NCBI GenBank assembly: GCA_027422505.1
Contig: JAPQWV010001586.1
Location: 17,045-81,044, forward strand
Direction of reading: 5' to 3'
Origin: Craterostigma plantagineum
Lineage: Eukaryota > Streptophyta > Magnoliopsida > Lamiales > Linderniaceae
Length of the DNA stretch: 64,000 nt
A program made the translations under genes and the position numbers. The notes under the pieces were generated by a model that saw nothing but the letters and a program-made list of their open reading frames with translations, was not told the DNA's origin and searched no databases. Shown in pieces: positions 8,545 through 58,900 of the stretch. The stretch's first letter is position 1. Every line of letters begins with the position of its first letter.

Positions 8545-8551
8545 CAGTTTT

Positions 8552-8569
8552 TGGCGCCGTTGCCGGGGA
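8552..8569 (+). other. Primer binding site, tRNA-Asp
   Basis: TGGCGCCGTTGCCGGGGA begins 8 bases after the 5' LTR. It is the reverse complement of the 3' end of plant tRNA-Asp including CCA, the primer typical of Athila elements. Confidence 0.9.
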
Positions 8570-9048
8570 CAGCGATATCATTAATTTTAAGTTTAATTCC
8601 GAGTTTAATTTAGATATTCTATTTTTATAAATTTTTTAGTATTATTATAATATATATGTTTTTCTTCTAGTAGAAGCTTTATTATTAATAATATTAATAT
8701 TATTTTTATTATAGTACTATTAATATTATTTTTCCGTACGTCACTACCAATTATATATATCTAAAAAAAAATATTATTATTTTTATTATTATCATTATTA
8801 TTATTATTAGTTATTGCAGTAGAACTATTATTTTTTTTCCTATATAAATATTATTATTTTAGTATATTATAATTGGCATTAATATTATTATAATCATCAT
8901 TTATATTTTTTTTACTTATATTTATTGTTATTATTTTTTATCTAAGTCATCACTACTTCATTATTATTATTATTATTTTTATTATTACTTTTATCGGACT
9001 TATTTACGTTGATTTTATATTTTTTTTTGCAGAAATATTATTCGGTGC

Positions 9049-10530: not shown

Positions 10531-11364
10531 GATTCGACCTCCATTTCCAGCTGCACTACGAAGAGGAAAACCTGATAAGCAATTTGAACGCTTTATTAAT
10601 ATTTTTAAGAAGCTTGAAATTAATATTCCTTTTGTTGAAGCGCTTTTGCAGATACCAAAGTATGCAAAATTCTTGAAGGAGCTACTGTCGAACAGGAATA
10701 AGTTGGAAGAACATGGTACGATAGCGCTCAATGAAGAATGTTCAGCTGTGCTACAAAGGAAGCTACCACCGAAGATCAAAGACAGAGGGAGTTTCTCAAT
10801 CCCTTGTTCTATAGGATCGCTCTCATTTACTAAAGTATTATGCGATTTAGGTGCAAGCATCAATTATTACCTTTTTCGCTTCTTAAGAAATTAGGAGTCG
10901 GTGAGCCAAAGCCCACATCTACGATACTCCAACTAGCAGATAGGTCAATCACTTACCCACGGGGAATCGTTGAGGATGTACTAGTGAAGGTTGGAGAACA
11001 CTACTTTCCAGCAGATTTTGTGGTATTAGACATGGAGGAAGATACCGATATGCCACTGATACTTGGAAGACCATTTCTAAATACGGCAAGAGCACTCATC
11101 GACGTCGGTAATGGTAAACTCATCTTACAAATAGGGGATGAAAAAGTAGTATTTGATGTTTATAAATCAATGAAACACCCCGCTGATGATGATTCATGCT
11201 CGTTTATTGATAGTATTGACTCATGTGCTTTTGAGTATTTTAAGGCTTTCAGGAACAAAGATGAGTTGGAAGCATGTTTAGTTGGAGAAGACATAGAAAA
11301 CAAAGCCGTTGGAATATGTCGTCGCGAGTCTAGAGGCAAATACACCTCACAGAAAGTCATTTAG
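10531..11364 (+). pseudogene. Athila aspartic protease region
   Basis: The gag-protease linker is followed by the retropepsin active-site motif LCDLGASIN near 10835-10860. Immediately after it the frame shifts from the 9677-10894 ORF to the 10840-11364 ORF. The second half shows the conserved MPLILGRPFLNTARALIDV segment. One frame change lies inside the domain. Confidence 0.85.
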
Positions 11365-11499
11365 ATCAAAATTTGAGCAACTCGATCGGACATTGGGACT
11401 GCAACCACGCCATCAATCGAGGATCCTCCAACTCTAGATTTAAAGCCTTTACCTAGCCATCTTAAATATGTTTATCTTGGTGCCTCTGACACTTTACCT

Positions 11500-13294
11500 G
11501 TGATTATTTCTTCTTCATTGACAGGTCTCATGGAAGAAAAGCTATTGAGAGTGCTAAGGGAACACAAGTGGGCATTCGCATGGAAGGTTGCTGACATAAA
11601 AGGAGTAAGCCCGACCATTTGCATGCACAAGATTTTGATGGAGGACTCATACAGACCGATCGTACAACCACAGAGGCGTTTGAATCCAACTATGCAAGAA
11701 GTCGTAAAGAAGGAGGTAATCAAGCTTTTGGACGCAGGTATTATTTATCCTATCTCTGATAGCGCATGGGTTAGTCCGACGCAGGTTGTGCCGAAAAGGG
11801 AGGTATAACTGTGATTAAAAATAACTCAAATGAATTAATTCCCACTAGGAAATTACGGGATGGCGTGTATGCATAGACTACAGAAAATTAAATGATGCAA
11901 CACGTAAAGATCACTTTTCACTTCCCTTTATCGATCAAATGTTAGAGCGATTAGCTGGACATGAATTTTATTGTTTTCTAGATGGCTATTCAGGGTATAA
12001 CCAGATTTCTATAGCACCTGAGGATCAAGAAAAAACTACTTTTACTTGTCCTTACGGTACTTTTGCGTATAGACGTATGCCATTTGGATTATGTAATGCC
12101 CCAGCTACATTTCAAAGATGCATGCTTGCTATTTTCCATGATGTAGTTGAGAAATTTATGGAGATCTTCATGGATGATTTTTCTGTGTTTGGATCTACGT
12201 TCGATACATGTCTCGATAATTTAGATTTTGTTCTTAAACGTTGTGAAGAAACTAACCTTGTTTTAAATTGGGAGAAGTGCCATTTTATGGTACAGGAAGG
12301 CATAGTTCTTGGACACAAGGTATCACACAAGGGCATTGAGGTAGATCGAGCGAAGGTCGACGCAATTGAGCAGCTGCCACCACCCACGTCGGTGAAGGCG
12401 GTTAGGAGCTTTTTGGGACATGCAGGATTCTACCGACGCTTCATAAAAGATTTTTCGAAAATAGCTAAGCCATTATCAAACTTACTTGTCAAAGATGTTG
12501 TGTTTGACTTTACAGACCAGTGTCTACAAGCATTTCGCACTTTAAAGGAGAAACTCACCACAGCGCCAGTGATGGTTGCACCGGATTGGACTTTGCCGTT
12601 TATATTGATGTGCGACGCTAGTGATAGTGCGGTAGGTGCTGTTCTTGGACAACGCAAGGATAAAATATTTCAGGCCATTTACTACGCTAGCAAGACTTTG
12701 GACGATGCACAGAGAAATTACGCTACTACCGAAAAAGAGCTACTAGCTGTGGTATTTGCGGTAGATAAATTTCATTCGTATCTGGTGATGAATAAGGTAA
12801 TAGTATACACTGATCATGCTGCACTTAAATACCTATTTGCTAAAAAAGATGCTAAGCCTAGGTTAATTCGTTGGATTTTATTGCTTCAAGAATTCGACCT
12901 AGAGATACGTGATAAGAAAGGTGTCGAAAATGTGATAGCTGATCATTTATCTAGGCTAGAGAATTCACTTGAGCAGAATAAGGAATTACCTATTGATGAG
13001 CGTTTTCCTGATGAACAATTGTATGCATTACTAGATACGTCTTTACCTTGGTACGCGGATTTTGCAAATTATGCTGCTACAGGTGATATTCCAACAGGGT
13101 TAACTTTTCATCAGAAGAAGAAATTTCTTTCTGATGCAAAGCATTATCTGTGGGACGATCCATTCTTGTACAAAATCTGCTCCGATCAGGTAATTCGACG
13201 ATGTATTCCCGCCGCGAGAGGTAAATTCTGTTTTATCGCATTGTCATTCTGGTTTAACGGGTGGACATCATGGGCCTACAAAGACAGCATTTAA
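11500..13294 (+). pseudogene. Athila reverse transcriptase and RNase H
   Basis: The N-terminal fingers lie at 11500-11808 and the palm/thumb/RNase H at 11939-13294. About 130 bp between them are out of frame. Visible motifs include CIDYRKLND (in the broken stretch), [24 protein letters not shown] and the catalytic MDDFSVFG. The [16 protein letters not shown] connection follows, then RNase H motifs ([35 protein letters not shown]). The polymerase catalytic pair DD is present. Confidence 0.93.
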
Positions 13295-14159
13295 GGTACT
13301 TCAATCAGGTTTATTCTGGCCTACTTTATTTAAGGATGCTCATGCTTATGTGGTTTCTTGTGATCGTTGTCAGCGTACTGGTGGTATTTCTAGAAAGCAT
13401 GAGATGCCTTTAAATATTATGCTAGAAGTTGAGTTATTTGATGTTTGGGGTATTGACTTTATGGGACCATTTCCTACTTCATGCTCTAATAAATATATTC
13501 TTGTTGCAGTAGATTATGTGTCTAAGTGGGTTGAAGCTGAAGCATGTAGAACAAATGATGCACGAGTAGTTATTCGCTTTCTTAAGAAAAATATTTTTAC
13601 TCGTTTTGGTACACCACGTGCAATAATTAGTGATGGGGGTACTCATTTTTGCAATAAGTTATTTGCTAATTTATTGTCGAAGTATGGTGTCAAACATAAA
13701 GTGTCAACCCCGTATCACCCTCAAACCAGTGGCCAGGTAGAAGTTTCCAATAGAGAACTTAAGCAAATTTTAGAAAAGACAGTGAATGCCTCTAGGAAAG
13801 ATTGGTCTTTGAAGCTAGATGATGCATTATGGGCATATCGCACTGCATTTAAAACACCGATAGGAACTTCACCTTTTAAATTAGTTTACGGAAAAGCATG
13901 TCATTTACCTGTTGAGTTAGAACATCGTGCATATTGGGCTGTTAAGAAACTTAACTTTGATTATGTCGAGGCAGGTAAAAACCGGTTACTCCAACTGAAT
14001 GAGATGAAGAATTTCGCCAAAACGCATATGAGAATGCAAAACTGTATAAGGAGCGAACGAAGAAATACCATGATAAGAGAATTGCACAGAGAGAGTTCAA
14101 AGTCGGGGATCGTGTACTACTATTCAACTCGCGGCTGCGCCTATTTCCCGGAAAACTAA
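13210..14159 (+). pseudogene. Athila integrase
   Basis: The HHCC zinc region begins near 13210 and is split by a frame change near 13250; its CDRCQRTGG half opens the 13350-14159 ORF. The core follows with GIDFMGPFP, then [10 protein letters not shown], then the glutamate in [12 protein letters not shown], in the D,D-35-E order. The C-terminal part runs through [18 protein letters not shown] and [18 protein letters not shown] further frame change near 14010 moves the tail into the ORF at 14186-14449. Confidence 0.92.
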
Positions 14160-14459
14160 AGAGTAAATGGACAGGGCCATACGTAGTGGAGCAAGTATTC
14201 CCATCTGGAGCCGTACAGATCCTAATAAACGGGAAGGACTCTTATAAGGTTAATGGACAGCGCCTGAAATTATACGACGACGGGAATCTTGGAAAAGTAA
14301 CTTCAATAATTCTTGAAGAACCCCGTAATACTAATACGACTGCTTTGAGTTGTTCTATGTCTTTCAGGGATACCTTGTCTGGAATAAATACCAGCAAGCT
14401 GAAGGACCTCCACCACACTGAAGCAAGTCCATATACCGATCTACCTTGATCGGTGTGAC

Positions 14460-16205
14460 AGTCGAGCTAACGACTATAAAAGCAGCGCTTCTTGGGAGGC
14501 AACCCAAGTATTATCTATGCGTTACATTTTATTTCGTATTCGAGTCTTATATTTATCATATCGCATCTTATTAAGTGTGTTTTGCTTTTTCACAAAAATT
14601 CATATCACGGTGCCGTCTAGTTTTGTTTCCTCGCAGGCTCATAATCAGTTTGGGGGTGGTGTGTTCGCAAGCTAGCTTGATCTTATGAAGGAACTAAAAT
14701 CTTCTCACGACACATCCCGCATCGATCAACGCATTATTCAGGGCAGTGTCACTTAACTCTCTATCTGCTTTAAATTTTACACACATTGGGGACAATGTGA
14801 TAATTAGTTTGGGGTGGGTGACACATGCTAGATTTTATATGATATCGATCGATTTGGTTTGTTAGTTGATTTAACTGATCAATGTTAGGATTTGAACGTC
14901 ACTTGTGAAAACTCGTGTCGATGATGAAAATTTTTAAAATTTTTCTGGTGTCGAGATAAGATTCAGCTAATTGTGTGTGAAAGTTCTGCATGTTACGTGT
15001 TTTGATTTTAGCATGACTATCTGATCACATTGATTGCTTCAGAAAAAGAGCACGTATCATGAGACACAAAGCCAGAAAATATTGTGAGTTTTGAGCCGAA
15101 AAAAAAATTAGAGCAACATAATACTTGCTCAATGTTTTTTTTTTCTTTTCATGAGGGTCACGCATAGTCTGGTTATTTTGAACTTGCTTTATTATGCATG
15201 TCAATATCACTGTGGATTTTTGTGTACGAAAATGATAAAGGCGCTTAGGATGAGTTACTGGCCTAAATATCTCCGCACCTGACATAGTTAACAACTAGTG
15301 AGCCCCTTTGAGCCTTATTACCTTATTTATTGATATGGAGCCACGATATTTAGCCACGTTATCCCATTATTTTATCCTTCATCCTCGAACCATGTCAGCA
15401 TGTTAGCTTACAAATCGCTTTATAGTATTGGGTCTATTAATTTAGAGGAAAGACGATTAGGACATGTTATATGTGGTTGCGTTATTTTATTTATTTGAAG
15501 AAAAAAATCGAGCAGAAAAAAAAAAAGAGATTGAAAAAAAAAGAAAAAAATAATATCGAGAAAAAAAAAGAGAGAAAAAGAAAAAAAAAATATATATTGT
15601 ATTTGCAAGAAAAAAAGTTACAATAGATTTTTTTTAGAATTATTCTTGAGTTCTTAGTTATATATTTGAATTGTTTTTAAGTAGTATGAGTCTCCAGTGT
15701 TTGAGTCGTATTTTGTACTATAGAGTATAGACGGGAAAGCGATTTAGTAACTAACATGCTTGACCATATTACCTCACTCATCCCATATGTCACACCCTTA
15801 TTGCCCTGAACCCCATTACAACCACTCATAAAGACCTTTTGATTCGTGCATGAGATTTACTAGTGCATTATGACGTGATATATTTGCAAGCATAGAGTAA
15901 TATCATTCTATGTCGTGATTTGAACGTTTTTATACAGATCCCATTAAACACTTCGAGCGAATTGAGCGATCCATGTGAGAGTTGCCACTAGATACGTGTT
16001 ATGATCTGGAAATATTTTTGTGCTATGACATGATTGCGAACTATCATTTCATGTCTCGTGTTTAGCTGGATCATTCATTAGTTGATGACGATTTTCGACC
16101 AATTGTGCTTTTGATTTTCTGAGAATAAACATGAGATTCGTTTAGTGACGTCGTAAAATCCTAACTTGATGTAGTTTATTCTGCTTTTATGATCGAGGAC
16201 GATCA
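14460..16205 (+). other. Athila 3' non-coding region
   Basis: About 1.75 kb with no gene. It contains the 'gggaggcaaccc' motif at 14495-14510, common in this lineage, and two extra polypurine-like tracts (about 14648 and 14806). An A-rich stretch at 15496-15600 makes a long T-rich ORF on the other strand that I do not believe. No env-like ORF is present. Confidence 0.7.
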
Positions 16206-16208
16206 AAG

Positions 16209-16220
16209 CTAGTTTGGGGG
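16209..16220 (+). other. Polypurine tract
   Basis: CTAGTTTGGGGG lies 4 bases upstream of the 3' LTR, the expected priming site for plus-strand synthesis. Confidence 0.75.
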
Positions 16221-16224
16221 TTGT

Positions 16225-17757
16225 TGATAAGTTCTGATTTTACATAAATATACACCCGTAAAAGTGTGTTATATGTGGTATTTATCTTTATATCATTCAA
16301 TATTCTATGTTTACATGCATATCTCATGTTTGCAGATATCAATGTGTAACCAACCGAAAAAGAAGAAAATCCAAGCTAAAAAGAATACATCGAAATCAAG
16401 AATGCAACTTGCAATATTATTAAAGATCACAAGCAATAAAAGAGCCGTCAACATTCTACACTATCACACCCTTTCCTAGGTTGGAGGTTTGACAAATATT
16501 ATTAAACTTTGGGGCCCTCTAGAAGAAGTGGAGATCAACTCTTGCTAAAAATCGCATGCAAAAGTCTCACGTTGGTTAACATATTCAAAGAGAAGATCAT
16601 GCATGCAATCTTCAAACATGCGCATGACCCACCAAATATGACTAAGGGACAAGAAAAATAGCAACTACTACCATTATTTATACAAGCATCGATCGAGCAA
16701 ACAAGGGAGGGGAAGAGAGTTGGAGCTAAGGCCATTACAAATAAAAAAAAAAGGCAGCCTAAGTGAGCTTTATTCTCACGCACATCCCACACATAATATC
16801 ACTCACGCAAGTCACTAAGCCACGACGCAGCTACCTCTCCACACTTTACGGGCCAAGAGGACGGGAGAAAGACGTGATTCGCTCGAAACGACGGAGACAC
16901 CGGCTCGAGCCGACGCATTCCGACTCTCGGTTATCGTAAGGGACGAATTTTGTATTTTTATTTAGACGTTGGCAACGATGCTTTCCTTTGATTCGTCGTT
17001 GTTGTTATCTTTTAATATGCTAGCGTAAAATATTGTGTGATTAAGGCCGTGTTAGGCCGTATTATGACTACGTGATAATGTTATTCATATCATATTTAAT
17101 CGTATGAGTCAAGTTATGTGTTTTATGCTTGAGTTTAATGCTTGCGTATGTCTGATCAACATATGCACGATATTTGATTGGTTTATTAGACGGACAAAGT
17201 GATTAACCGGTTAGAACAATAAATATAAAGCACCACGACGTAAAACCGACCAGAAATGGAATTCGGTTTCGTACGTGTGGTTTCCGAGGTCTTAGACGCC
17301 GAAAGCGTCTAACTCGGGAAATCTCACAAATATTAAATGCATGCGTAGGAACTACAGTCATATAGACATATAGGGATTGGTTCTCTGTCGCATAGGATCG
17401 TTATTGCGGGACAAACGAGTAGCGATTATTTTAGGAAATTCTACCTTGACTGAGCTCGTATTGATTATTTATGATTAATTATGTGAAAACGTAGGAATAA
17501 TGCGTGCCAAGCATGTGCCTCGATCACCTTGTCGTCATTCGTATATTTGCTTTAGTTGTTTATGCGCTTTTATTTGGATTGATTATTTTTAATATCAAAA
17601 ATCATAAAATACCTTATTTAAAAATCGCTCCAGTCTAAATTAAATTTCAGAGTAATATTTAAAATTAATCGAGCTGTCCTCGTGGATCGATACTTGGATT
17701 TGTCCATTTTATACTACTTGCACGACCTAGTACACTTGCTAGAACTCGAGCGTGTCA
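16225..17757 (+). repeat. Athila 3' LTR
   Basis: It begins TGATAAGTTCTG and ends GAGCGTGTCA, and is the partner of 7012-8544. It abuts an intron of the PRR gene: the donor of PRR exon 4 is only 57 bases from the LTR end. Confidence 0.93.
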
Positions 17758-25649: not shown

Positions 25650-26627
25650 CTAGTCGAACAAACTAAACATATTTTCCTCTCGTCGCTTTCTTCCTTGGGC
25701 TCTTCCTGGAAAAGGAAAAAAAAAACATCACGTAACAGTTAACTTCAGCTGGGATTGATCTCACATTATCGATGAACAGATGAACGAGCATTTCAAGTAA
25801 CAGAAAACAACAAGAAACTAGAAATAGATATAGTATTATCAAATGTATTTTTTTCTCTTTGTTCTCTTGCTATTGAACAATGGATTAAAGACAGGGAACA
25901 TATCAATTTTGTCTTTGTTTAGCATTATATCAATTTTCAGAAAGCTAAAGAAATGGCCATCTTTTTACTTCTCACGTTTTGCTAACAGGAGTATTGATTT
26001 TACAGGCAATACGTGTACGCAGCACAACTCTAGCCAATTATTGGAAAGACAAACGCAGAACTAAGGGGGAAAACGTACCTTCTTTTCCTCGGCGGGCGGA
26101 GCAGCCGCTGAAGCACCAGAACCAGCTCCGCCGGCCGGAGCAGAAACAGCCGCGGCAGCTCCACCACCGCCAGCGCCGACGTTTAAGAGGAGATCGTCAA
26201 TGTTCTTCTTCTCGCACAGCTTAGAGAATAAACTCGGCCAATAAGACTCCACGCTAACATTCCCAGCCTTCACCAGAGTGGCAATTTTTTCCGCCTAGTT
26301 AAAACGAAAAGCGTACATGAATCAGAAACAAACAAATCGGAAAAAATCAATGTCTTGTCATAAACGATGCCCAACCGTGATGGGGATTCATCGTCAAAGC
26401 GTACATGAATCAGAAACAAACAAATAAAAAAAAACGTCTTATTATAAACGATGCCCAAATTAATTACCGTGATGGGGATTCCATCGTGCGTACATGAATC
26501 AGAAACAAACAAATAAAAAAAACAATGTCTTATTATAAACGATGCCCAAATTAACTACCGTGATGGGGATTCCATCGTCGTGGAGTATCAAAGCAGCGTA
26601 ACTGCAGGCAAGCTCGCCGATCGACAT
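25650..26627 (-). CDS. RPP1: 60S acidic ribosomal protein P1
   Basis: Three exons: 26559-26627, 26079-26294, 25650-25705. Exon 1 reads [20 protein letters not shown]; exon 2 reads [20 protein letters not shown], continues through [16 protein letters not shown], an Ala/Gly-rich hinge and PPAEEKK; exon 3 gives the acidic tail ending MFSLFD. P1 pairs with P2 on the ribosomal stalk, where the conserved tail contacts translation factors. One base is missing near 25680, just before the MFSLFD end, so the frame as read misses it; the corrected length is 113 residues, normal for P1. Intron 1 carries a three-copy tandem repeat that includes the end of exon 1. Confidence 0.92.
26312..26577 (-). repeat. 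Three-copy tandem repeat spanning the exon 1 / intron 1 boundary of P1
   Basis: Units at 26312-26399, 26400-26488 and 26489-26577 are 88-89 bp each and near-identical. Each contains, on the minus strand, the end of exon 1 (GATGGAATCCCCATCACG in the better copies) followed by a GT donor and intron sequence. The outermost unit is the genuine exon end, and the other two leave decoy exon ends and donors inside the intron. Confidence 0.85.
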
Positions 26628-31236: not shown

Positions 31237-32054
31237 TAGGGATGTTCAACTGTCGGTTAACCGACCGAACCAATCGAATCGAAGTTTCGGTTCGTACCGA
31301 ATACCGAACCGAAAATTTTTCGGTTCGGTATTTGATTTTCATTTTGGTAATTGAAAATAATTCGGTTATGTTTTATAACTTCGGTAAACCGAACCGAACC
31401 GAAAACCGAATTTTTTTATTTTTCTATACATATATATTATTATATAAAATATATAAGCATAAATTATTATATGTTATATAATAATATATCCACCATATGT
31501 TATAAAATATAATATTACTTGTATCAAAATTTTATACAAATATATATATATATATATATATATGATAATATATTTTTTATGATTTAAATCATACTAACAG
31601 ATTAAATAAAATATGGAAATATTAGTTATATTAAAATTTTATACTCCCTCCGTCCCAGTAACTTTTGTACATATTACTAAATTGGGCGTCCCACTATCTT
31701 TTGTACATTTCCATATTTAGTAAAAAACTATTACACACAATCAATATAATAATATTAAATATTATTAAAAGACGTGTCGCACCCATACACTTTTCTACCT
31801 CTGTATTATTAAAATATTCAGTTTCTTAAAAACCGTGCCGAAATCCAATTGTACAAAACTTATAGGGACAGAGGTAGTACAATTCTATATATGAAAGTAT
31901 AATTTTATAATATAAATAATTTTTATTTTCATGAAACAGTTTCTCGGTCGGTTAACCGCCCAACCGAACCGAAATATTTCGGTTCGGTTTTCAGTTTATA
32001 TAATCCTCGAAACGATCTTTTCGGTTCGGTTCGCTTATAACAGAATGAACACTA
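31237..32054. mobile_element. hAT-like non-autonomous element (CGGTTAACCG type), with nested MITE
   Basis: 818 bp including a nested 234-bp Stowaway. The left end is tagggatgttcaactgtcgg and the right end is cagaatgaacacta. Flanks cctgggcc and gttgggcc agree at 6 of 8 positions, an aged 8-bp duplication. Subterminal ccgaacc/ggttcgg and ggttaacc motifs are dense. It has no coding capacity. Confidence 0.75.
31644..31877 (+). mobile_element. Stowaway-type MITE, copy 1 (nested)
   Basis: 234 bp with the classic TIR CTCCCTCCGTCCC at the left and an imperfect inverse (gggacagaggtag) at the right. It is flanked by TA on both sides (31642-31643 and 31878-31879). It belongs to the Tc1/mariner Stowaway group. 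It is inserted inside the hAT-like element at 31237-32054, and a near-identical copy lies at 57604-57836. Confidence 0.92.
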
Positions 32055-32245: not shown

Positions 32246-33669
32246 TCAAGCCTCTCTAGTGTAAGCTCGGACCGCAAAGGCCAAACCCAAGATCAAAATG
32301 GGCACGAGGAACTGCAATATCCAGTGGCGGAGCCAGAATTTCCACTCAGTGGGGTCATTTTGGTAATTTTACTAGGAAAATGGAAATTGGACCCCATACC
32401 CACTATTTTTAAGAATTTCCACTGGGGTCCTTTTAATATAATATTTTTCAATTTCAGTCCTAATATAATTTTTTTTACCCAATTTATTAATAAATTTTTT
32501 TTCCCAGTGGGGTCCAGTGACCCCACTGGTTCTCACGTGGCTCCGCCACTGGCAATATCTTGATCACAAACTCAGACGTCTTGTCGTGGTTGTAAGCAGC
32601 TTGCTGAGGGGGAACGTACTCTCGCTTGAGGGGCACCGTGGCCATGTCTATCTCTCCTATCAAGTATTGGCCCATCATTTCCCGGGCAGTATCGCTGTGC
32701 CCCACGTCTTCGAAATCGGCGGTAGCATCTTTACCTACAAAGCAGACATCCTATGGAATTTTACGGCTTAGTTTTTGACTAAGTGGGCGGTCTAATTTAG
32801 AAGGGTTATTTACCAGTAACAGATATGAGAACATCGTCTCCTCCTGGGTGGTCGTCCATGAACGGTGTTACGTCGTAAACCTTAAAAAAAAAAGGGGAAC
32901 GATGTTTTTGCTTCAAACTAGTGCACCATTGATGATGTTTATTCTGGCCTAGTTCTCTTGATCAAAGAAACAATGTACAACTTGTTCCTATGAACGGATA
33001 TAAAACAATCTTCTCAGGTCATATTCAAACTAACAAGAAGCAACTAAGTGCTAGGTGTATCTTAATAGCAAGACAGAAGGTAATTAATTTAACCGATAGA
33101 TCTACACCCATTGCTAGTTATCTACTGCTCAATCAATCATTAACGCTAAACCCATCTTTCAGCTGTGATCAGAACAAGGAAATGCAAGAAAAAGGAACAG
33201 AGTTGGAAGGAATCATTGTACCCAGCTCTTGATTGAGTGGAGTACATTTCCAGTCGAGGAACAACAATCAAGTCAAGAGCAACCACAATTTGTATAAAGT
33301 TCTAACTTTTATGATTCATTCAGATCAAATTCAGGCCAAGCTTAGAGTAACAAAAAAATGAACATATCAGCTCATAGCAAAGATAAATAGATCAACCCCT
33401 AAAATAACCTATTTAACGGAAAAACAGCAAAATATGAAGCATTTAGTAAGATTAATCAGTCAAATACAGTCAACAGAAAGCAGAGCCGACTGCATGATCT
33501 AAATCAAACCCAAAATCTTATCAACAGTTGTATTTCTCACAAGTAAAAACGCATAGATTGAATTATTCTCAAGCAAAACAACCTTTCCATTGATTATGAC
33601 CCAACAATCTTTCGTCTTGTTATGCTTCGAAACCTCCTCGAACGTGTGGACTTTCGGATCGGCAACCAT
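32246..33669 (-). CDS. CYB5: Cytochrome b5, last exon disrupted by a MITE
   Basis: Three exons: 33583-33669, 32814-32880, 32246-32734. The protein starts [20 protein letters not shown] and continues with [20 protein letters not shown]. The heme-ligand His pair is in DDHPGGDD (residue 40) and [10 protein letters not shown] (about residue 64). After [20 protein letters not shown] the reading runs into a 230-bp hAT MITE at 32322-32551, which supplies about 20 foreign residues and a stop. Beyond the MITE the exon resumes exactly with the membrane anchor ([17 protein letters not shown]) and a stop at 32246. Excluding the MITE and one target copy gives 134 residues, the usual plant length. Cytochrome b5 is a tail-anchored ER electron carrier for desaturases and P450s, so the product as read would lack its anchor. 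Confidence 0.92.
32322..32551. mobile_element. hAT MITE inserted in the cytochrome b5 coding exon
   Basis: 230 bp with 13-bp perfect TIRs (CAGTGGCGGAGCC / GGCTCCGCCACTG) and a perfect 8-bp target duplication gcaatatc (32314-32321 and 32552-32559). Length, TIR and duplication are those of non-autonomous hAT elements. Perfect ends suggest a young insertion. Confidence 0.95.
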
Positions 33670-34225
33670 CTCCGAGCTTTTTTCCCCTCCGACGAATCAC
33701 TCGAAGAAATTGTAGCTAAACCGAGGCCACCAAATCGTTCACCAAACCAAACCTAGGGAGCGAATGAGAGCTACCAAGCACGATTTATATAATAATTCCT
33801 AAAAAATGTGGATCGCGATTATCTTTAGATCCCTCGTTTTCTTGTTATTTCAATATGATCCTTGAAGGTTTGTAATTTGCAAACGGAATCAAAGTTCAAC
33901 TCAAACTAAACTACCAATAAAATGGAGCAACATTAATTAACAATATTTGCTTTTGTTTGTTTCATGCCTCACTAAGCGATTCCAGTCGGCCACGAGCCTA
34001 TTTAAATACTGCATAGTCTGCATTGCATGATGCATCATTGTCAAGAGGATAAATTAATAATTTTATTCATCGGAAATTGAAATAAAATATATTTATACTG
34101 ATTGGATTGCACACAGAAAATACGCGATCCACGGATTGCCGTATTAATGCAGTCCACAAGCGTCTGGCATTTAATCATAGTTACCAACTTTTTTTCATTT
34201 AAAATAAATATTTATATCTACATAG
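33670..34225. other. Cytochrome b5 upstream region
   Basis: AT-rich upstream sequence of the cytochrome b5 gene up to the left end of the hAT palindrome. No further feature was recognised. Confidence 0.5.
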
Positions 34226-36567
34226 CAGTGTTTTAAAAAGCGTCGAATAGCGCGCACTGTAGCGCGAGTTTGCGTTTTTCCAAGCCAAAACGCGCTGTAG
34301 CGCAAGTGATTTCGCGTTCTTCCTGAAAAGCTTACGCTTTATGTGACGTGGCACGCTTTATCACTCGTATCTCGCGCGTTTTACGCTATTTTTCAAAATA
34401 CCCACGCTATTCGGACCGTTTGATAATTTACTAAAAATATGGGGTGTAGATCGTAAATAGATAATTTAAAGCACACTTGCATCTAGGTTTCCTTACCCCT
34501 TTCAGTCCGATTTTTTCGTCTGCTGCTTGGAGTCTTCTTAGTCTGCTAGCTTCAACAAATTCGTCACTCAGTAAGTTCAATTAGGTTTTCTATTTTGCTA
34601 ATATTGTTACTTGTATTAGGCTTTATGCGTGGTTTCGTGATTTCGTTGTATTAGCATTTTGATTGGTTGAGGTGCTTGGAAAATGAAACTTAAGATATAT
34701 ATGTTAAAGGTGTGTGGATGTCGTTATATGTTAATATAGTGGGTAGCATTGGGACCTTGTGAACAGCACCTAAGTGAATAACACCTTCTCTAACAGCTAT
34801 CAAAGCGATTGTCTGAGAGAAAATAGCAACTGAAATTTTAAGTATGTTATATTTTTTGCTTGCTCTATAATTAGTTGTTGGGCATGAGAAATCAATTTTA
34901 TGGTTTTTTTGTTCTTTCCATGTTGTTGCTCTTTTGGTTGCATTTGGTTTCACTTCAAAGGTTTTGAACAGTTCACGCTTCTATTAATCTCAGCTTTTTT
35001 ATTTGCAGTTTAAATGTCAACAAATAGCAAGAAGGATATCGGGTGGAAATATGGATTTAAAGTAGACGGGGAGAAAACTATTGAATGCAGATTTTGTCAC
35101 CATAAATCTAATGGGGGCATTTCTCGTCTTAAAGAACATTTAGCTCAATCCCGCAAAGGTGTTGCACCTTGTGAAAAAGTTCCAGATGATGTGAGAAGGG
35201 AAATTAGTGAGAGTCTTCAAACTTACAAGACTCTCAAAAGCAAGAGGAATGAATTGCTCCGCGAGATCGGTGAGGGTCCAAGTGGCAATAGATTTTCTTC
35301 TTCTGATGGGGACGGGGTTTCACAAGGAGGTAGCAATAGCCATTCTAAAGGCGTCAGCACATTGGATAAGTTCGTTAGCTCTGAACCGAGGCAGACAACT
35401 CTTAATTCCACATACAAAAAGGAATTGAAAAAGGATATTGATCGCAAGGTGGCTCGTTTCATGTACTCGGCTGGACTTTCTTTCAATGTCGTCAACGATC
35501 CTCACTGGTTACCAATGGTTGAGGGCATTGCAGAGTATGGTAAAGGATACAAACCTCCTTCTATGCATGAACTACGAACAAGGTTGCTTAAATCGGAGGT
35601 TAGTGACATCAACATTATTTATGAGGAGCACAAAAAAGTTTGGAAAACATATGGTTGTACTGTGATGTCCGATGGGTGGACGGATGGGAATAATAGAGCT
35701 TTGCTAAATTTTCTCATTAATAGTCCTGCTGGCACTTTCTTTCTGAAATCCGTTGACGTTTCCGACTCTATAAAAAATGGTGAATTGATTTTCAACTATC
35801 TTGATGATGTTGTAAATGAGGTAGGGGAGGAAAATGTTATCCAAATCATCACGGATAATGCTAGTAACTGTATAAAGGCTGGGAAGAAGTTGATGGCTAA
35901 ACGAAAGGCTTTATGGTGGACACCTTGTGCGGCGCATTGCATTGATCTCATGTTGGAATCAATTGCCAAACTGAGTTTATTTTCAGATACAATTGAAAAG
36001 GCGAAAAGAGTTGTGAAGTTTATATATGGTCATGGTACTATTCTATCTTTGATGAGGAAGCATACGAATGGGAAAGAAGGCTTGTATGCTTGTATGGACC
36101 GAATGTTGTCGCCCGATGATCGTCTTCTTGCCGATATCCAGCTGGACTTTTATGACAAATCAGAAGGAGAATTTGGAAGTCCAATTGCAAAAAAATCAAG
36201 AATGTTGAGATCACCAGGTATGATGTTTCATGTTCGAGTGTTTTTTTTTATATACATTGCTTTCAACTCTATGTAATTCCGATGTTGTTTATCTTTTTTA
36301 TAGCAAAATGGTGGGAACGATTTGGAAGCAAAACACCGGAGCTTATGAGATTTGCTATACGAGTTCTTAGTCTTACTTGTAGCGCTTCGGGATGCGAAAG
36401 AAATTGGAGCACGTTTGAGTCGGTAATTATTTTTTTCTATCGTGTTGCGTGGGTGTTAAAGTTTATTTGGCAGAATTTTAAGCTTAAGAGATGCTATATA
36501 TTTTTTCTTTCTTTCATTTCATGTCATTGGACAAAAAGTTTGTTTAACAATAAATTGCTTTGGTTAT
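34226..36567 (+). repeat. Left arm of the palindrome
   Basis: It is the inverse of 36612-38954. It starts at the transposon terminus and ends inside the last visible intron of the transposase gene, 6 bases before its acceptor is complete. Confidence 0.95.
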
Positions 36568-36611
36568 TCGTAGATACATACAAAGAAGAGGAATAGGCTT
36601 GAGCATTCAAG
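35014..36611 (+). CDS. hAT transposase, BED-finger type, internally deleted (left copy)
   Basis: Exons 35014-36217, 36304-36422 and 36574-36611 (the last cut by the palindrome centre). An N-terminal BED zinc finger spans about residues 8-50, with C26, C29, H42 and C53 (CRFCHHKS, ISRLKEHLAQ) plausible as ligands. A basic linker follows, then the DUF659 region with the first catalytic Asp in VMSDGWTDGNN and the second in IITDNASNCIKAG, and CAAHCIDLMLE. TNGKE is then followed directly by GLYACMDRM: about 150-200 residues of the usual helical insertion region are missing. The C-terminal hAT dimerisation block follows with KWWERFGSKTPEL and SASGCERNWSTFES, then IHTKKRNRLEHS before truncation. It is probably catalytically dead because of the deletion. 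Confidence 0.88.
36568..36611 (+). other. Asymmetric loop of the palindrome
   Basis: 44 nt present once: the end of an intron (tcgtag) followed by 38 nt of transposase exon 3, encoding IHTKKRNRLEHS. It belongs to the left copy and marks where the inverted copy was joined. Confidence 0.88.
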
Positions 36612-38166
36612 ATAACCAAAGCAATTTATTGTTAAACAAACTTTTTGTCCAATGACATGAAATGAAAGAAAGAAAAAATATATAGCATCTCTTAAGCTTA
36701 AAATTCTGCCAAATAAACTTTAACACCCACGCAACACGATAGAAAAAAATAATTACCGACTCAAACGTGCTCCAATTTCTTTCGCATCCCGAAGCGCTAC
36801 AAGTAAGACTAAGAACTCGTATAGCAAATCTCATAAGCTCCGGTGTTTTGCTTCCAAATCGTTCCCACCATTTTGCTATAAAAAAGATAAACAACATCGG
36901 AATTACATAGAGTTGAAAGCAATGTATATAAAAAAAAAACACTCGAACATGAAACATCATACCTGGTGATCTCAACATTCTTGATTTTTTTGCAATTGGA
37001 CTTCCAAATTCTCCTTCTGATTTGTCATAAAAGTCCAGCTGGATATCGGCAAGAAGACGATCATCGGGCGACAACATTCGGTCCATACAAGCATACAAGC
37101 CTTCTTTCCCATTCGTATGCTTCCTCATCAAAGATAGAATAGTACCATGACCATATATAAACTTCACAACTCTTTTCGCCTTTTCAATTGTATCTGAAAA
37201 TAAACTCAGTTTGGCAATTGATTCCAACATGAGATCAATGCAATGCGCCGCACAAGGTGTCCACCATAAAGCCTTTCGTTTAGCCATCAACTTCTTCCCA
37301 GCCTTTATACAGTTACTAGCATTATCCGTGATGATTTGGATAACATTTTCCTCCCCTACCTCATTTACAACATCATCAAGATAGTTGAAAATCAATTCAC
37401 CATTTTTTATAGAGTCGGAAACGTCAACGGATTTCAGAAAGAAAGTGCCAGCAGGACTATTAATGAGAAAATTTAGCAAAGCTCTATTATTCCCATCCGT
37501 CCACCCATCGGACATCACAGTACAACCATATGTTTTCCAAACTTTTTTGTGCTCCTCATAAATAATGTTGATGTCACTAACCTCCGATTTAAGCAACCTT
37601 GTTCGTAGTTCATGCATAGAAGGAGGTTTGTATCCTTTACCATACTCTGCAATGCCCTCAACCATTGGTAACCAGTGAGGATCGTTGACGACATTGAAAG
37701 AAAGTCCAGCCGAGTACATGAAACGAGCCACCTTGCGATCAATATCCTTTTTCAATTCCTTTTTGTATGTGGAATTAAGAGTTGTCTGCCTCGGTTCAGA
37801 GCTAACGAACTTATCCAATGTGCTGACGCCTTTAGAATGGCTATTGCTACCTCCTTGTGAAACCCCGTCCCCATCAGAAGAAGAAAATCTATTGCCACTT
37901 GGACCCTCACCGATCTCGCGGAGCAATTCATTCCTCTTGCTTTTGAGAGTCTTGTAAGTTTGAAGACTCTCACTAATTTCCCTTCTCACATCATCTGGAA
38001 CTTTTTCACAAGGTGCAACACCTTTGCGGGATTGAGCTAAATGTTCTTTAAGACGAGAAATGCCCCCATTAGATTTATGGTGACAAAATCTGCATTCAAT
38101 AGTTTTCTCCCCGTCTACTTTAAATCCATATTTCCACCCGATATCCTTCTTGCTATTTGTTGACAT
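36607..38166 (-). CDS. hAT transposase, inverted second copy
   Basis: Start at 38166. It is identical to the left copy through the BED finger, DUF659 region and dimerisation block. The homopolymer of 10 instead of 9 keeps the first intron open in frame, so it appears as one 519-residue reading frame, but the same splice sites (CAG/GTATGATG and ATAG/CAAAATGG) are present. It lacks exon 3 and ends within the intron at the palindrome centre. It shares the internal deletion. Confidence 0.85.
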   Translation of the reverse strand: MSTNSKKDIGWKYGFKVDGEKTIECRFCHHKSNGGISRLKEHLAQSRKGVAPCEKVPDDVRREISESLQTYKTLKSKRNELLREIGEGPSGNRFSSSDGDGVSQGGSNSHSKGVSTLDKFVSSEPRQTTLNSTYKKELKKDIDRKVARFMYSAGLSFNVVNDPHWLPMVEGIAEYGKGYKPPSMHELRTRLLKSEVSDINIIYEEHKKVWKTYGCTVMSDGWTDGNNRALLNFLINSPAGTFFLKSVDVSDSIKNGELIFNYLDDVVNEVGEENVIQIITDNASNCIKAGKKLMAKRKALWWTPCAAHCIDLMLESIAKLSLFSDTIEKAKRVVKFIYGHGTILSLMRKHTNGKEGLYACMDRMLSPDDRLLADIQLDFYDKSEGEFGSPIAKKSRMLRSPGMMFHVRVFFFYIHCFQLYVIPMLFIFFIAKWWERFGSKTPELMRFAIRVLSLTCSASGCERNWSTFESVIIFFYRVAWVLKFIWQNFKLKRCYIFFLSFISCHWTKSLFNNKLLWLS

Positions 38167-38954
38167 TTAAACTGCAAATAAAAAAGCTGAGATTAATAGA
38201 AGCGTGAACTGTTCAAAACCTTTGAAGTGAAACCAAATGCAACCAAAAGAGCAACAACATGGAAAGAACAAAAAAACCATAAAATTGATTTCTCATGCCC
38301 AACAACTAATTATAGAGCAAGCAAAAAATATAACATACTTAAAATTTCAGTTGCTATTTTCTCTCAGACAATCGCTTTGATAGCTGTTAGAGAAGGTGTT
38401 ATTCACTTAGGTGCTGTTCACAAGGTCCCAATGCTACCCACTATATTAACATATAACGACATCCACACACCTTTAACATATATATCTTAAGTTTCATTTT
38501 CCAAGCACCTCAACCAATCAAAATGCTAATACAACGAAATCACGAAACCACGCATAAAGCCTAATACAAGTAACAATATTAGCAAAATAGAAAACCTAAT
38601 TGAACTTACTGAGTGACGAATTTGTTGAAGCTAGCAGACTAAGAAGACTCCAAGCAGCAGACGAAAAAATCGGACTGAAAGGGGTAAGGAAACCTAGATG
38701 CAAGTGTGCTTTAAATTATCTATTTACGATCTACACCCCATATTTTTAGTAAATTATCAAACGGTCCGAATAGCGTGGGTATTTTGAAAAATAGCGTAAA
38801 ACGCGCGAGATACGAGTGATAAAGCGTGCCACGTCACATAAAGCGTAAGCTTTTCAGGAAGAACGCGAAATCACTTGCGCTACAGCGCGTTTTGGCTTGG
38901 AAAAACGCAAACTCGCGCTACAGTGCGCGCTATTCGACGCTTTTTAAAACACTG
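36612..38954 (-). repeat. Right arm of the palindrome
   Basis: It is the inverse of 34226-36567, with one homopolymer length difference noted by eye. Confidence 0.95.
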
Positions 38955-40284
38955 ATAGTGATGGGATGTTAAAATAATTCCAAGACATGGCTAAAACCTA
39001 CAAGATGGGCGGCTGTGGAATTCTTTTGCATCCATTATTGACTTATCTAAGTTGATTCATGGCAAATTCGATTTCTTACCGTCCGTCGAGTCATAATTAT
39101 ACAACAAAATATTATTTAAGTCGTCTGAATCTACAAATGTCATGGGCTGTTGTGACAATGAACAACAATAAATTTGACTTTGTGAATTGATGATGTTGAT
39201 AAGCAATAAATGGCCCGACAATTGTAGTTACTACATGGGCTTGAAGAAGATGGTTGTAAATAGAGTGGAGAATTCCAGAAAAGAGATGTTTATCTCAATA
39301 CTCAGAAATAAGTAAAATTAAGATTAAGCAGAAGAAAACATATATGAATATGGAGCGAGAATAATAGAGATATAAACTTAACGTGCGTTTTCTTGGCTAA
39401 TTTGCAGTCAAACATTAAAAGAAAAGAAGAGAAAAAGTTCGAAGCTTGCTGCTTTTTCTTCATTGACTACTTTCTAAACAATGAAGTAAAGATATAGAAT
39501 AAAATCTTGGTCCACAAGAGCACAAGCCCATATTATTAGGCTTGTTACCACAAGAAAGTTTTTAAAAATATGCCCAAAATTAAATCACATATTAGTGATT
39601 GTATGCTTTAAAGACGGTGTAACATTCATCTGAAAATCAATCCACTCGAAAAGGAGGATATCTGAGCAAATAGTTTTATTTGGTCCTGATTTTGTAAGAT
39701 ATATTCGAAAGTGAAAAGAAACATCAAATAAAATAAAGCAACAGTGATTCACTAACTTATCATCGGCGAGAAATAAGTTAAACATATATGCCACCGCACC
39801 GTCCCACGGTGCGCATAATCTTTTTTTTTTGTGATTCACTTACTTTCTTTCACATAAAATAAATAAACCACATATTAAGAATCCACATGCAATATCAAAA
39901 GTAATTCTTGTTTTCCTTGAAGAAAATATATATCTTGTCGTTATGCTCCTTTCAATTAACTACCCAAATGATTAAAGAAGTCAACTTACCGTGCAGAAAA
40001 GGCCAACTATTACTAATTAATTAATCATCTTTTTTCAATGTTAATGTGCATTAGCCCCAAATCGCTCCTAATGTCAAGCCCACACACAATAAAACAGCGA
40101 CACTTACACAAGAAAATCAAACACGCACTTTTAAAAATATTTCATTTTATATTCCATACCAAATAATATTTGACCAATTTTGCCGTGTGCCGGCAGTTTA
40201 TTTCGCAGAAAAAAATTCCACTATGCCCCTATTTAAATAGGAATCCTTGAATTCAATATTTCATTCAAATTGACGCCCCGAGAC

Positions 40285-40336
<52 letters not shown>

Positions 40337-40466
40337 ACTTCGTAGGGCAATGATATCACATTGATTTAAGTTAAATACCGTACTAGTAGCGCGTTTTCAC
40401 TTTTAATTCAATCAACTAATCACTTCAACACTACTGATCCGAATCAACGCCGTCATCATCAACGCC
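38955..40466. other. Intergenic and promoter of the AAA-ATPase gene
   Basis: About 1.5 kb without a recognisable gene. The last 180 bp hold a long CT microsatellite that probably lies in the 5' leader of the AAA-ATPase gene. Confidence 0.5.
40289..40335 (+). repeat. (TC)n microsatellite in the AAA-ATPase leader
   Basis: An uninterrupted TC run of about 47 bp, 130 bp upstream of the start codon. CT tracts are common in plant 5' leaders and core promoters. Confidence 0.9.
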
Positions 40467-41909
40467 ATGATAATTGCAGACCTTTTTCTACTGATTTTCG
40501 CGATATTTTTTGTCTGTTTGATACTCAGATTGTTGCGGAGGACGAGCCTGATTCGTTTCCTGAAGGAATCGTATCGGTGTTTGGAGGAAAAATGCTGCGT
40601 TCATCAGTTCGTCAAGGTGCCCAAATTTAACGATAACATGCAGGAGAGTGAGCTTTATCGGAAGATTCTGGCGTACCTCAATTCCTTGCCGTCCGTCGAA
40701 GACTCTGATTTCGTGAATTTGTTTTCTTCTACTTCTTCTAAATCGACGGAGATCAGTACGGTGATTGGCGGGGACCTGACGATCTCCGACGATTTTTTGG
40801 GGGCTAGGGTTCGCTGGACGATCGTCGACGACGATCGCGGCGGCGGCGGTAAGTCGCTGCTCATGAGGATCCGAAAGCACGAGAGGCGGAGGATTTTGGT
40901 ACCGTACCTCCAGCATATTCACCACACCGCCGACGAGATCGAGCTGAAGCGGAAGGAGACGAAGCTGTACGTCAACGTAGGGAGCGGCGCCGGACAGAAG
41001 GGAAAGGGGCGGTGGAGGTCCTGTAGCTTCACGCATCCTGCGACGCTACAAACGGTGGTCATGGACGCGGATTTGAAATCGAGGATTAAATCCGATTTAG
41101 AGAATTTTTTGAAGTCCAGAAACTACTACAACCGCTTGGGCCGAGTCTGGCGCCGGAGCTACCTCCTGTACGGTCCACCAGGTACCGGAAAGTCCACGTT
41201 CGCGGCGGCGATCGCGAAGCTCATCAACTACGACGTCTACGTCGTCGATCTGAACAACCTCCAAAGCGACGCCGACCTGAAGTACCTCCTCCTACAGACG
41301 ACGAGGAAATCCATCCTGTTGGTGGAAGATCTCGACCGCCACCTCAACAGTAACGGGAAATCGACGCCGCTGAGCTCGGCCGGAATCTTAAACTTCATGG
41401 ACGGAATATTCTCCTTCTTCGGCGAGGAGAGGATCGCCGTCTTCACCATGAACAGCAAAGAAGGCACGGACGCGTGCATCCTACGCCCAGGCAGAATAGA
41501 CGTCCACATCCATTTTCCCCTCTGCGATTTCACGGCCTTCAAGAGCTTCGCCAGCAGCCATTTAGGCCTGAAAGACCACAAACTCTTCCCCCAAGTCGAA
41601 GAGATGATTCTTCAGACGGGCGCCGCCGCCCTGAGCCCAGCCGAGGTTTGCGAGATCATGATATCGAACCGTGGGTCGCCCAGCCGAGCCTTGAAGACCG
41701 TCATCGCAGCCCTTCAGGCGAACCTTACGAGTCAGGATGGGCCGGGCCGGGTTGAGGTGGAAACGGGTGGTAATGGGATTCATCCGATTAAGGAGATCAA
41801 GAACATATACGGGCTACTGAGGGCGAGGAGCTGCAGAAGAGTATCGATGGATAAATTGGACGTGGGCGAAAGAATGCCTGGCAAGTTCGAAGGCACTACT
41901 AACGTGTAA
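40467..41909 (+). CDS. Membrane-anchored AAA-ATPase (AATP1/OM66 family, At2g46620-like)
   Basis: A single uninterrupted exon of 480 residues. An N-terminal hydrophobic anchor (residues 3-21) is followed by the plant-specific AAA-ATP-assoc domain. The AAA core has Walker A GPPGTGKS (236-243), Walker B ILLVEDLD (283-290), a sensor region TMNSKEGTDACILRPGRID and the arginine-finger segment. The Asn-Ser-Lys sensor deviates slightly from the usual T-N-H-K. Relatives sit in mitochondrial outer, ER or other membranes and respond to stress, but the substrate is not known. The intronless structure is typical of the family. GC content is clearly higher than in the surrounding DNA. Confidence 0.92.
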   Translation: MIIADLFLLIFAIFFVCLILRLLRRTSLIRFLKESYRCLEEKCCVHQFVKVPKFNDNMQESELYRKILAYLNSLPSVEDSDFVNLFSSTSSKSTEISTVIGGDLTISDDFLGARVRWTIVDDDRGGGGKSLLMRIRKHERRRILVPYLQHIHHTADEIELKRKETKLYVNVGSGAGQKGKGRWRSCSFTHPATLQTVVMDADLKSRIKSDLENFLKSRNYYNRLGRVWRRSYLLYGPPGTGKSTFAAAIAKLINYDVYVVDLNNLQSDADLKYLLLQTTRKSILLVEDLDRHLNSNGKSTPLSSAGILNFMDGIFSFFGEERIAVFTMNSKEGTDACILRPGRIDVHIHFPLCDFTAFKSFASSHLGLKDHKLFPQVEEMILQTGAAALSPAEVCEIMISNRGSPSRALKTVIAALQANLTSQDGPGRVEVETGGNGIHPIKEIKNIYGLLRARSCRRVSMDKLDVGERMPGKFEGTTNV

Positions 41910-55946: not shown

Positions 55947-58900
55947 TCAACTCGAAAGCCCGGCGACGAACGCCACGCCAGTCGCCGGCAACCACGACGA
56001 GCCGTAAATAAACCTAGCAACCGTAAACCTCTCCGCCTCTTCCTTCGACGTAATAACCCTAAAACCCCTCCACTTGACCCGCCCGCCCACCCCGGCCCCG
56101 GGCCCATTATTCATATACTCCCCGTAATACAGAGTATCGAGCGCGAAATTCCCGTTCCACTCCAACCACCCCCGTCGGTCCACGTGGTCGCCCAGGTAGG
56201 TCAACATGTACACCACCCTCGAGTACGTCTTCCAGGGCCGGCCCAAGAACGTCGGGTATTGGGCCCTGACGGGCTCGAGCTCGGGCTCGGCCACGAGCCT
56301 GCAGTCGTGGATTATAATCCCGGTGTTCTGATTGGGGTCCTTGCGGTTTTGGGCCGTGACCGTGTTCTTCTGCTGGGCCATGGGCTTTCGGGCGTGCAGT
56401 GTGCAGGACTGGAAGACCACCGCTGCGTTTCCGAAGATGAAGTCCACGGTTCCGTAGACGTCGCACTCGCGATAGAATTGGCGGTTCGAGTGGACGTAGA
56501 GCGTGTCCTGGTAGCCCGCGATGCTGCACCGGTAGATGACCGCGTGGTCCGACCCGACCCGAAGGGCCACCGCCTGGTGGTTGGACGGGCCTGCCGTGTT
56601 CTCGAAGGTGATGTCGCGGGCCACGAAGCCCGACCCGGTCGAGGCTGCATTTTTCAATTAATTTCTAATCCATCAATTTTTTTTGCAACTATTTTATTAA
56701 CATAGTGGAGAAACTTGTAGCAATTTGTCACGTGTCAATGGTTCACGAGCATTTTCTTTGGGGATCTAATTAGTTTTTTATTTTTGTTGATAGTGATTTG
56801 TGGAGAAATAAGAACCAACGAACGCAATAGTGTGTCCTAATCCCTTTAGAGTCAGCACGATGTTTAATCGAAGGGGAAAGTGGAAAATTACTGAAAATGA
56901 AAGGGGAGAAAAAGCGTTAGAGATAACCAAAGGAATTCATTCTCACCAAAGGAAGCCGTGCGGAATGTCGTTACTTTATTCTGAACGCTTTTTGAACCCG
57001 TTATGATGGTTTTGCCCTTTCCGTCTCCTATGAGCATTATGTTGGTCTTCTTCCTTCCCACCTTCAAGTCATCCTCCTCGTACCTAAAACAATGTCCAAA
57101 ACAACACAAGGTATATCAGAAAATAAAAAAAAATCAACTAAATAAATGCATATTCGATAATCACATGTTCTTAGTATGCAACCATATATGTTGCTTTCTT
57201 CACAACCACATGTATGTGATTGAAATAATCTACGTGGACATTCCATACATGTTAGATGTTTTTGTTTCAACTAGTTAGATCATGACATGTATGATCCAAA
57301 ATTGACAAAAAACGTTCACAATTCATGTCATTAAGCAAGCATCATGATTCGATTGAATTCAACTAACCCATTATGCGTTTAATGGGAAAAAGAGAAAAAT
57401 TAGGTGAGGTCTAATTACGCTAACACAACATGGACGGTATAGTCAATAGAGAATATATGCAAAAGAGAAACTAAAATTATATTATTACATATTCCATCGA
57501 CAGACTAATGTTACACTAAACGCCGTTGAATGACGTCATAATCTCAAGTTCAACACACGGCACAAATAGTCGTGAATGTGACGATTTCGATATGATGATT
57601 CTATCCTCCGTCCCAGTAACTTTTGTACATATTACTAAATCGGACGTCCCACTATCTTTTGTACATTTCCATATTTAGTAAAAAACTATCACACACAATC
57701 AATATAATAATATTAAATATTCTTAAAAGACGTGTCACACCACACACCTTTCTACCTCTATATTATTAAAATATTCAGTTTCTTAAAACCCGTGCCGGAA
57801 TACAAATGTACATATCTTATAGGGACGGAGGGAGTATATAACTTTCATATCGATATAAAAGTTTCATATGAGAACATAGAAATAGCAGGGAATCATTAAA
57901 AAAGGCAGTGATTTATGGAAAAGGCCACAAAAGGGAATTATATTCTAAGATTCTTTATTCGATAAACCTTTCCCAAAATTAAAAAAGCAGGTAAATTTAC
58001 CTTCCTGCCCTCACGTAGATGACGAACCTTCTATTTCCATTATCCGGCGCCTTCTTAATCGCCTCTTGAATCGTCTTCAACGCGCCGCCCTTACCGTCGC
58101 CGGAGACCACCACGTCGGCGCTGATCTCCGATGCAGGCGCGTCCACCAACGCCCGATCTCTCCTCGACAGCCACGCCGGGAATCCGTCTTCTGCCCCGCC
58201 GCCGCCGGCGGCCGACATCAGACGGCGGCGATTCTCCACCGACGCGTCGCTGGACAGTTCGTCCATGGCCGTGTAGATTGCGAGGCTGTTGCTGACGTGC
58301 TCGGCGAGGTCGCTGAGCTTTTCCGACATGTGGTTTTTCACTTCACCGTCGTCGATTTCTCCGAACCCTTCTGCGCACGTGTCTTGGTTGGTTAGGGCGG
58401 AGCTCAGCCATGTCCGTACGTCGCTTGAGGTGGCTCCGCCGTCAACGACGGAGGAGAGAGAGCGCGACAGTAGGTCTATGGAGTCGCCGAGGAGATCGAT
58501 GCAGTCCTCGTATGCTGACCTGTCATTACATTAAAAACATATATATACTATTTATATACATCCCATCAAAACAATATACATTCACTAACAATTAATATTC
58601 AGTCGTATCACATCCTTGTGAAAAATTAAATAAGTGCAGTACTTTTCTAAATTAATCTCATAAAGCCTACTAAATTTTCACCTTCGTTTCAGCCACACAT
58701 TAATTGGATTGAAATGTAATAATCACGAGAAGACTAAATAATACCCTATTGACAAATAAAAACAAAATGACTAACAAGTCAAGTAATCTACTTCGAAAAC
58801 TGTGTGGCCCTTTCAATTTCCACGACTTCGCACGTACTATATAATTAAAATATACTGCCTATGAAGTCAAGTCACAACAAACGTCGTCGTTCGTCGCAAG

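Follow-up and report, generated by a model that had tools for sequence, protein, structure and literature searches.

What does a transposon become when it is copied back onto itself, a source of RNA that silences its own family or an inert relic? The question is raised by a palindrome of about 4.7 kb (34226..38954) in a 64,000-nt stretch of the Craterostigma plantagineum genome (contig JAPQWV010001586.1, forward strand, positions 17,045 to 81,044), hereafter the window, the numbering of which is used throughout. An earlier prediction for this stretch (the original prediction) had described two copies of a BED-type hAT transposon arranged head-out around a loop, with maize Mu killer as the closest precedent for silencing. 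Mu killer was reportedly described by Slotkin et al. in 2005 as an inverted duplication of part of MuDR in maize. We find that the palindrome is a natural inverted duplication of the 5' part of a transposon and, as such, belongs to the same structural kind as Mu killer, an assignment made by structure and not by function.

Structure of the palindrome

The left arm spans 34226-36567 (2342 nt) and the right arm 36612-38954 (2343 nt); one is the reverse complement of the other, and 44 nt (36568-36611) separate them, coordinates that the original prediction had right to the base. Between the arms there are 0 substitutions, and the only difference is one of 1 nt in the length of a T run (T9/T10) at about 36250, in keeping with the near-perfect match that had been claimed. 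Identity starts at CAGTGTTTTAAAAAGCG on both sides and ends at the element terminus, beyond which the outer flanks are dissimilar; with an identical hAT 5' terminus at both outer ends, the predicted head-out arrangement holds. The description of the arms as two element copies holds only in that they are inverted: they are not whole elements, each comprising the 5' part only.

34226..36611, + strand: left copy, the first 2386 nt (5' part) of a BED/DUF659-type hAT element with an internal deletion, uninterrupted through the loop
36612..38954, - strand: right copy, the reverse complement of the first 2342 nt of the left copy (0 substitutions, one 1-nt indel)
34226..34242, + strand: 5' terminus, CAGTGTTTTAAAAAGCG
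38938..38954, - strand: second copy of the 5' terminus, at the opposite outer end

The window contains six inverted pairs of at least 45 nt, two of which belong to the palindrome, three to AT runs and one to a short dispersed repeat, and no further copies of the arm were detected elsewhere in the window at an E value of 1e-3. A chance inverted repeat is ruled out by 2.3 kb with 0 substitutions. What is duplicated in inverted orientation is the transposase-side part of the element; its terminus faces outward at each border, and the opposite end of the element is absent.

The parent element and its internal deletion

Among the Pfam domains, the left copy matches DUF659 (PF04937, 1.1e-60), the hAT C-terminal dimerisation domain (PF05699, 3.7e-8, partial only) and, barely above the cut-off, zf-BED (PF02892, 0.00027; 21.3 bits vs 20.6). 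Judged by these three domains, the parent element is a member of the hAT superfamily of the BED/DUF659 type, in line with the predicted identity; a Mutator transposase was not found, the scanned copies having given only DUF659, zf-BED and hAT dimerisation domains.

A protein database search with the transposase yielded 672 proteins at E <= 0.001, the best 120 of which were listed, the top match being P0001 of Striga hermonthica (81% identity over 85% of the query). Among the matches listed, and over 85-87% of the length of the transposase (35014-36276), the Zingiber officinale protein P0003 is 70% identical, compared with 57-67% for the Orobanche proteins P0004, P0005, P0009 and P0019, and shorter pieces from Orobanche hederae (P0045, P0065) match at 73-75%. 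This patchy similarity of the transposase might be due to horizontal transfer or to old paralogues.

Aligned with P0001 (718 residues), the left copy lacks residues 356-512 (157 residues), as well as everything after residue 611. The first of these gaps bears out the earlier claim of an internally deleted transposase, the junction being present in both arms because the arms are identical; given the same junction in both, the internal deletion most likely preceded the duplication. The deleted segment is bordered by Lys-Glu and Lys-Asp in P0001, and by Lys-Glu at either edge in P0004, as would fit a loss between short repeats.

The loop and the parentage of the arms

Which of the two arms is the original can be judged from the gene structure around the centre.

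35014..36217, + strand: transposase exon of the left copy, with the BED finger, DUF659 and the deletion junction after ...HTNGKE
36218..36303, + strand: intron 1 (predicted from the alignment with P0001), 86 nt with GT-AG borders
36304..36422, + strand: transposase exon that includes a portion of the hAT C-terminal dimerisation domain
36423..36573, + strand: intron 2 (predicted from the alignment with P0001), 151 nt with GT-AG borders and with its acceptor within the loop
36568..36611, + strand: 44-nt loop, comprising the last 6 nt of intron 2 (TCGTAG), an exon coding for IHTKKRNRLEHS and two bases of the following codon
36610..38166, - strand: right-copy transposase open reading frame, 519 residues, reading through unspliced introns

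The central 44 nt had been described as a loop between two copies, and the alignment to P0001 shows that they are not a neutral spacer: the loop is the left copy's own continuation, collinear and in frame with it, and the Striga protein carries the same residues as IHTKKRNRLEHS. Across both introns and the loop, the final 101 residues of the left copy match P0001 at 92 positions (91%). The left copy is unbroken to 36611, where the sequence reverses, at the left copy's own position 36567. Given that the loop consists of the intron-2 acceptor and the next exon of the left copy, this alignment identifies the left copy as the parent and the right copy as the fold-back, which ends exactly at the terminus. 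At the turn, an overlap of a base or two at most would be expected. Both copies are without a 3' gene end.

Two other arrangements were rejected. In a double Ds, one element is nested inside another; here, the right copy terminates on its inner side in the interior of the element rather than in a 3' terminus, and no arm sequence lies beyond its outer end. A simple sister-chromatid fusion would have mirrored the flank too.

Flanks, target site and age

34218..34225, no strand: left flanking 8-mer CTACATAG, the last four bases of which are the first four of the right flank
38955..38962, no strand: right flanking 8-mer ATAGTGAT

Because the same 5' end stands at both outer borders, the unit contains no native 3' repeat with which a comparison of terminal inverted repeats could be made. 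No intact 8-bp target duplication surrounds the unit, CTACATAG and ATAGTGAT being equal at 3 of 8 positions, and the overlap of the flanks is limited to the four bases ATAG. When 200,000 pairs of positions were drawn at random from the window, 0.74% showed a suffix-prefix overlap of 4-8 nt, and in 9.4% the two 8-mers had some 4-mer in common. As weak evidence, the ATAG overlap may be the remnant of a trimmed duplication, the unit having then formed in place. We classify the unit as hAT-derived rather than as a regular hAT insertion, because in its present form it is a rearranged derivative. A 17-mer that resembles the hAT terminus with 3 mismatches, possibly by chance, is located at 31819-31835.

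Plant mutation rates are put at 7e-9 and 1.3e-8 per site per year. With these rates, 0 substitutions over 2342 sites (95% Poisson limit) correspond to an age of the duplication of at most about 50,000-90,000 years, gene conversion between the arms being disregarded, although such conversion would lower the apparent age of the pair. To us, the palindrome suggests a young natural hairpin locus.

A possible route from fold-back to silencing

How could such a locus arise and act? The reading that we put forward, tentatively and as somewhat short of probable, is that the palindrome is the fold-back of a hAT deletion derivative and a putative source of double-stranded RNA (dsRNA) and small interfering RNA (siRNA) that would silence its family in trans. 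On this account, a hAT element would first have lost 157 transposase codons; copying would then have switched back onto itself about 2.39 kb from the 5' end, with a turn of 44 nt and loss of the 3' part. The product would be a single unit bounded by a 5' terminus on either side, in which the 5' regions of the two transposase copies face inward and both lack the native 3' end. RNA begun at either 5' region could run across the centre and fold into a nearly perfect dsRNA, at most 2342 bp long and with a single bulged base. Plant Dicer-like enzymes process long hairpins into 21-24-nt siRNA, and such cutting of the dsRNA could yield siRNA of this size that silences matching family members in trans, as has been proposed for maize Mu killer.

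Crossing the centre is essential to this route: because the 5' regions of both arms would yield the same sense sequence, self-pairing is possible only for an RNA that spans the centre. Given that the fold-back removed both native 3' ends, such crossing is likely if the promoters fire. For a central piece of 644 nt, the computed folding energy is -527.6 kcal/mol, with 95.7% of the bases paired, and with both sense introns spliced, 1992 + 119 nt of the sense arm would still be able to pair. Among known structured RNAs, no Rfam family reached the gathering score within 33000-40500.

Neighbouring genes and other features of the window

32490..33669, - strand: cytochrome b5 gene, outside the palindrome; three coding pieces, with the ATG at 33669, 556 bp from the palindrome, directed away from it
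40467..41909, + strand: AAA-ATPase (At2g46620-like) gene, outside the palindrome; first ATG of the frame at 40467, about 1.5 kb off, directed away from it

Pfam matches cover two pieces of the cytochrome b5 gene; the middle part with HPGG, which these matches lack, is located between the two at around 32850. The AAA-ATPase finds its best match in Paulownia fortunei (68%), other named matches including Sesamum, Erythranthe and Phlomoides, all of which, like Paulownia, we take to be Lamiales. The matches thus point to a source that is probably a member of the Lamiales without a close representative among them. A small open frame between the palindrome and the AAA-ATPase gene (39588-39839), the sole small flanking frame scanned, has no Pfam match.

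Transcription into the palindrome from flanking genes, which had also been proposed, fares poorly. Because cytochrome b5 and AAA-ATPase, the nearest recognised genes on the two sides, both point outward, read-through by them is not supported, although unrecognised transcripts may still enter. The arms' own inward-facing 5' regions appear to be likelier putative drivers than the neighbouring genes.

Elsewhere in the window, a retrotransposon on the + strand (7011-17757) is spread over several frames and contains gag and reverse transcriptase/RNase H domains, along with a frame (13194-14159) that is integrase-like by eye only; its terminal direct repeats (7011-8544 and 16224-17757, 1.5 kb) are 97.4% identical. 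A dispersed repeat is present in two copies (31647-31879 and 57605-57836) that are 93% alike over 233 columns and contain the motif CTCCCTCCGTCCC, which we presume to be that of Stowaway-type miniature inverted-repeat transposable elements. A tandem repeat (26374-26578; 2.2 units of 91 bp) lies about 80 nt from an exon of a 60S acidic ribosomal protein, and a coding piece of a pectinesterase (domain match 5.3e-112) occupies 55947-56657 on the - strand.

Comparison with known systems

With respect to architecture, the proposed Mu killer precedent stands. As far as the accessible text of Skibbe et al. 2012 (PMC3440606) goes, in Mu killer as in the palindrome, the transposase-side terminus points outward twice, partial transposase genes meet in inverted orientation, the middle and the other end are missing, and the locus is situated between two genes. 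The two differ in superfamily (Mutator vs hAT) and in extent, with about 1.3 kb of mudrA per side in Mu killer compared with the 2.34-kb arms here. The centre of Mu killer was unsequenced as of 2012, attempts to span it by polymerase chain reaction having failed, whereas that of the palindrome is readable (PMC3440606). Mu killer silences its family in crosses (PMC3440606), whereas silencing by the palindrome is putative. The part of the precedent that is not supported here is the flanking-gene route: Mu killer is entered by transcripts from its neighbour amy4, in contrast to the outward orientation of both nearest recognised genes here (PMC3440606).

How Mu killer itself acts is under debate. 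The same text links silencing chiefly to short antisense transcripts initiated within Mu killer, with a longer hairpin RNA as a possible contributor, and disputes the older model of a hairpin formed by read-through antisense RNA (Skibbe et al. 2012, PMC3440606). That the palindrome works like Mu killer is, by this analogy, a fair hypothesis, Mu killer's own mechanism being unsettled. The more specific proposal that it is an independent hAT counterpart of Mu killer, in which its own inward 5' regions drive long dsRNA and the whole family is silenced in trans, appears to us doubtful.

Long inverted repeats also make up the maize hairpin loci, including Tpd1 (Teosinte Pollen Drive), which, according to the main text of PMC11390486, are natural siRNA precursors, one of them 4,480 bp long; endogenous hairpin precursors supply 54.6% of the pollen-specific 22-nt siRNA species. 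At those loci, 22-nt siRNA was measured, and Tpd1 targets a host gene, unlike the role proposed for the palindrome (PMC11390486). The word hAT was not found in the main text of that study. Ac/Ds alternative transposition resembles the palindrome in that duplicated, rearranged DNA arises from hAT elements; as far as the accessible text of PMC3744419 goes, however, the Ac/Ds junctions carry 8-bp target duplications and it is the flanking DNA that is duplicated, whereas in the palindrome the duplication affects the 5' part of the element itself and not the flank, and there is no intact 8-bp duplication. We noticed no hAT counterpart of Mu killer in the open-licence literature, a scope that leaves out most subscription papers and supports no claim of absence in print.

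Alternative explanations

The palindrome could be real and recent and yet be an inert relic, methylated and silent or with few transcripts, which end near the centre, and exert no family-wide effect, a reading to which we give a good chance, if less than an even one. Plant transposon copies are mostly silent, neither of the nearest recognised genes reads into the palindrome, and AATAAA occurs near the centre on either strand (+ strand: 36549 and 36712; - strand: the corresponding mirror sites), so that RNA stopping there, before the centre or about 100 nt past it, might form a stem of about 100 bp or none. Transcribed long inverted repeats, on the other hand, are strong sources of dsRNA, as exemplified by the hairpin loci in the main text of PMC11390486, and here two copies of the 5' region stand without their native 3' ends. 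Along with the polyadenylation-like signals just given, three further points weigh against the silencing proposal. The only promoter signal is a single TATA-like string at 34696, no promoter being mapped; the protein search did not find an intact family member from the same species, the nearest protein, at 81%, coming from another species; and, as far as the accessible text of PMC3440606 goes, the main transcripts of silencing Mu killer plants are short antisense RNAs that are unable to form a long hairpin.

The origin of the locus is a separate matter that does not compete with the functional readings. Instead of a fold-back, two copies of the deletion derivative might have inserted nearby in opposite orientation, followed by loss of an interior stretch. 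hAT elements often transpose to nearby sites, and this course of events directly explains the missing 8-bp duplication, each outer flank retaining a different target site. It would, however, demand that independent breakpoints fall within 44 nt of each other (about 3.7% if uniform, although uniformity is not a given for breaks at the centre of a hairpin) and that the ATAG overlap be accidental (0.7% when counted as a suffix-prefix overlap of 4-8 nt, though 9.4% when any common 4-mer of the two 8-mers counts), and we regard it as rather unlikely. Still less probable, by far, is an assembly or library artefact, with the mirror copy derived from a fold-back read or a mis-join. The arms are identical save for one homopolymer base and come from a single assembly, but a fold-back artefact would also mirror the flank, whereas here the mirror ends exactly at the transposon terminus, and the gene-bearing flanks beyond it are unlike each other. 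Moreover, the long-terminal-repeat-like pair of the retrotransposon differs at 11 mismatches and 26 gap openings over 1549 columns, so the assembly keeps these repeats separate, although the gaps could include assembly indel errors. It is equally hard to believe that the palindrome is a mobile, non-autonomous fold-back unit with two 5' ends that is served by transposase in trans: the two identical outer termini are in place, but there is no intact 8-bp duplication and no second copy within the window, and hAT elements usually require unlike 5' and 3' ends.

Significance

Mu killer is a well-known transposon-derived silencer of its own family. If the fold-back reading of the palindrome as a source of silencing RNA is true, silencers of this kind would be known from two superfamilies, which would suggest that the route to silencing is recurrent. 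In the new case the centre and the two junctions can be read, which would permit base-by-base study of the birth event, a fold-back on a deletion derivative. It also offers a testable idea, namely that fold-back loci may carry their own trigger, both native 3' ends being removed.

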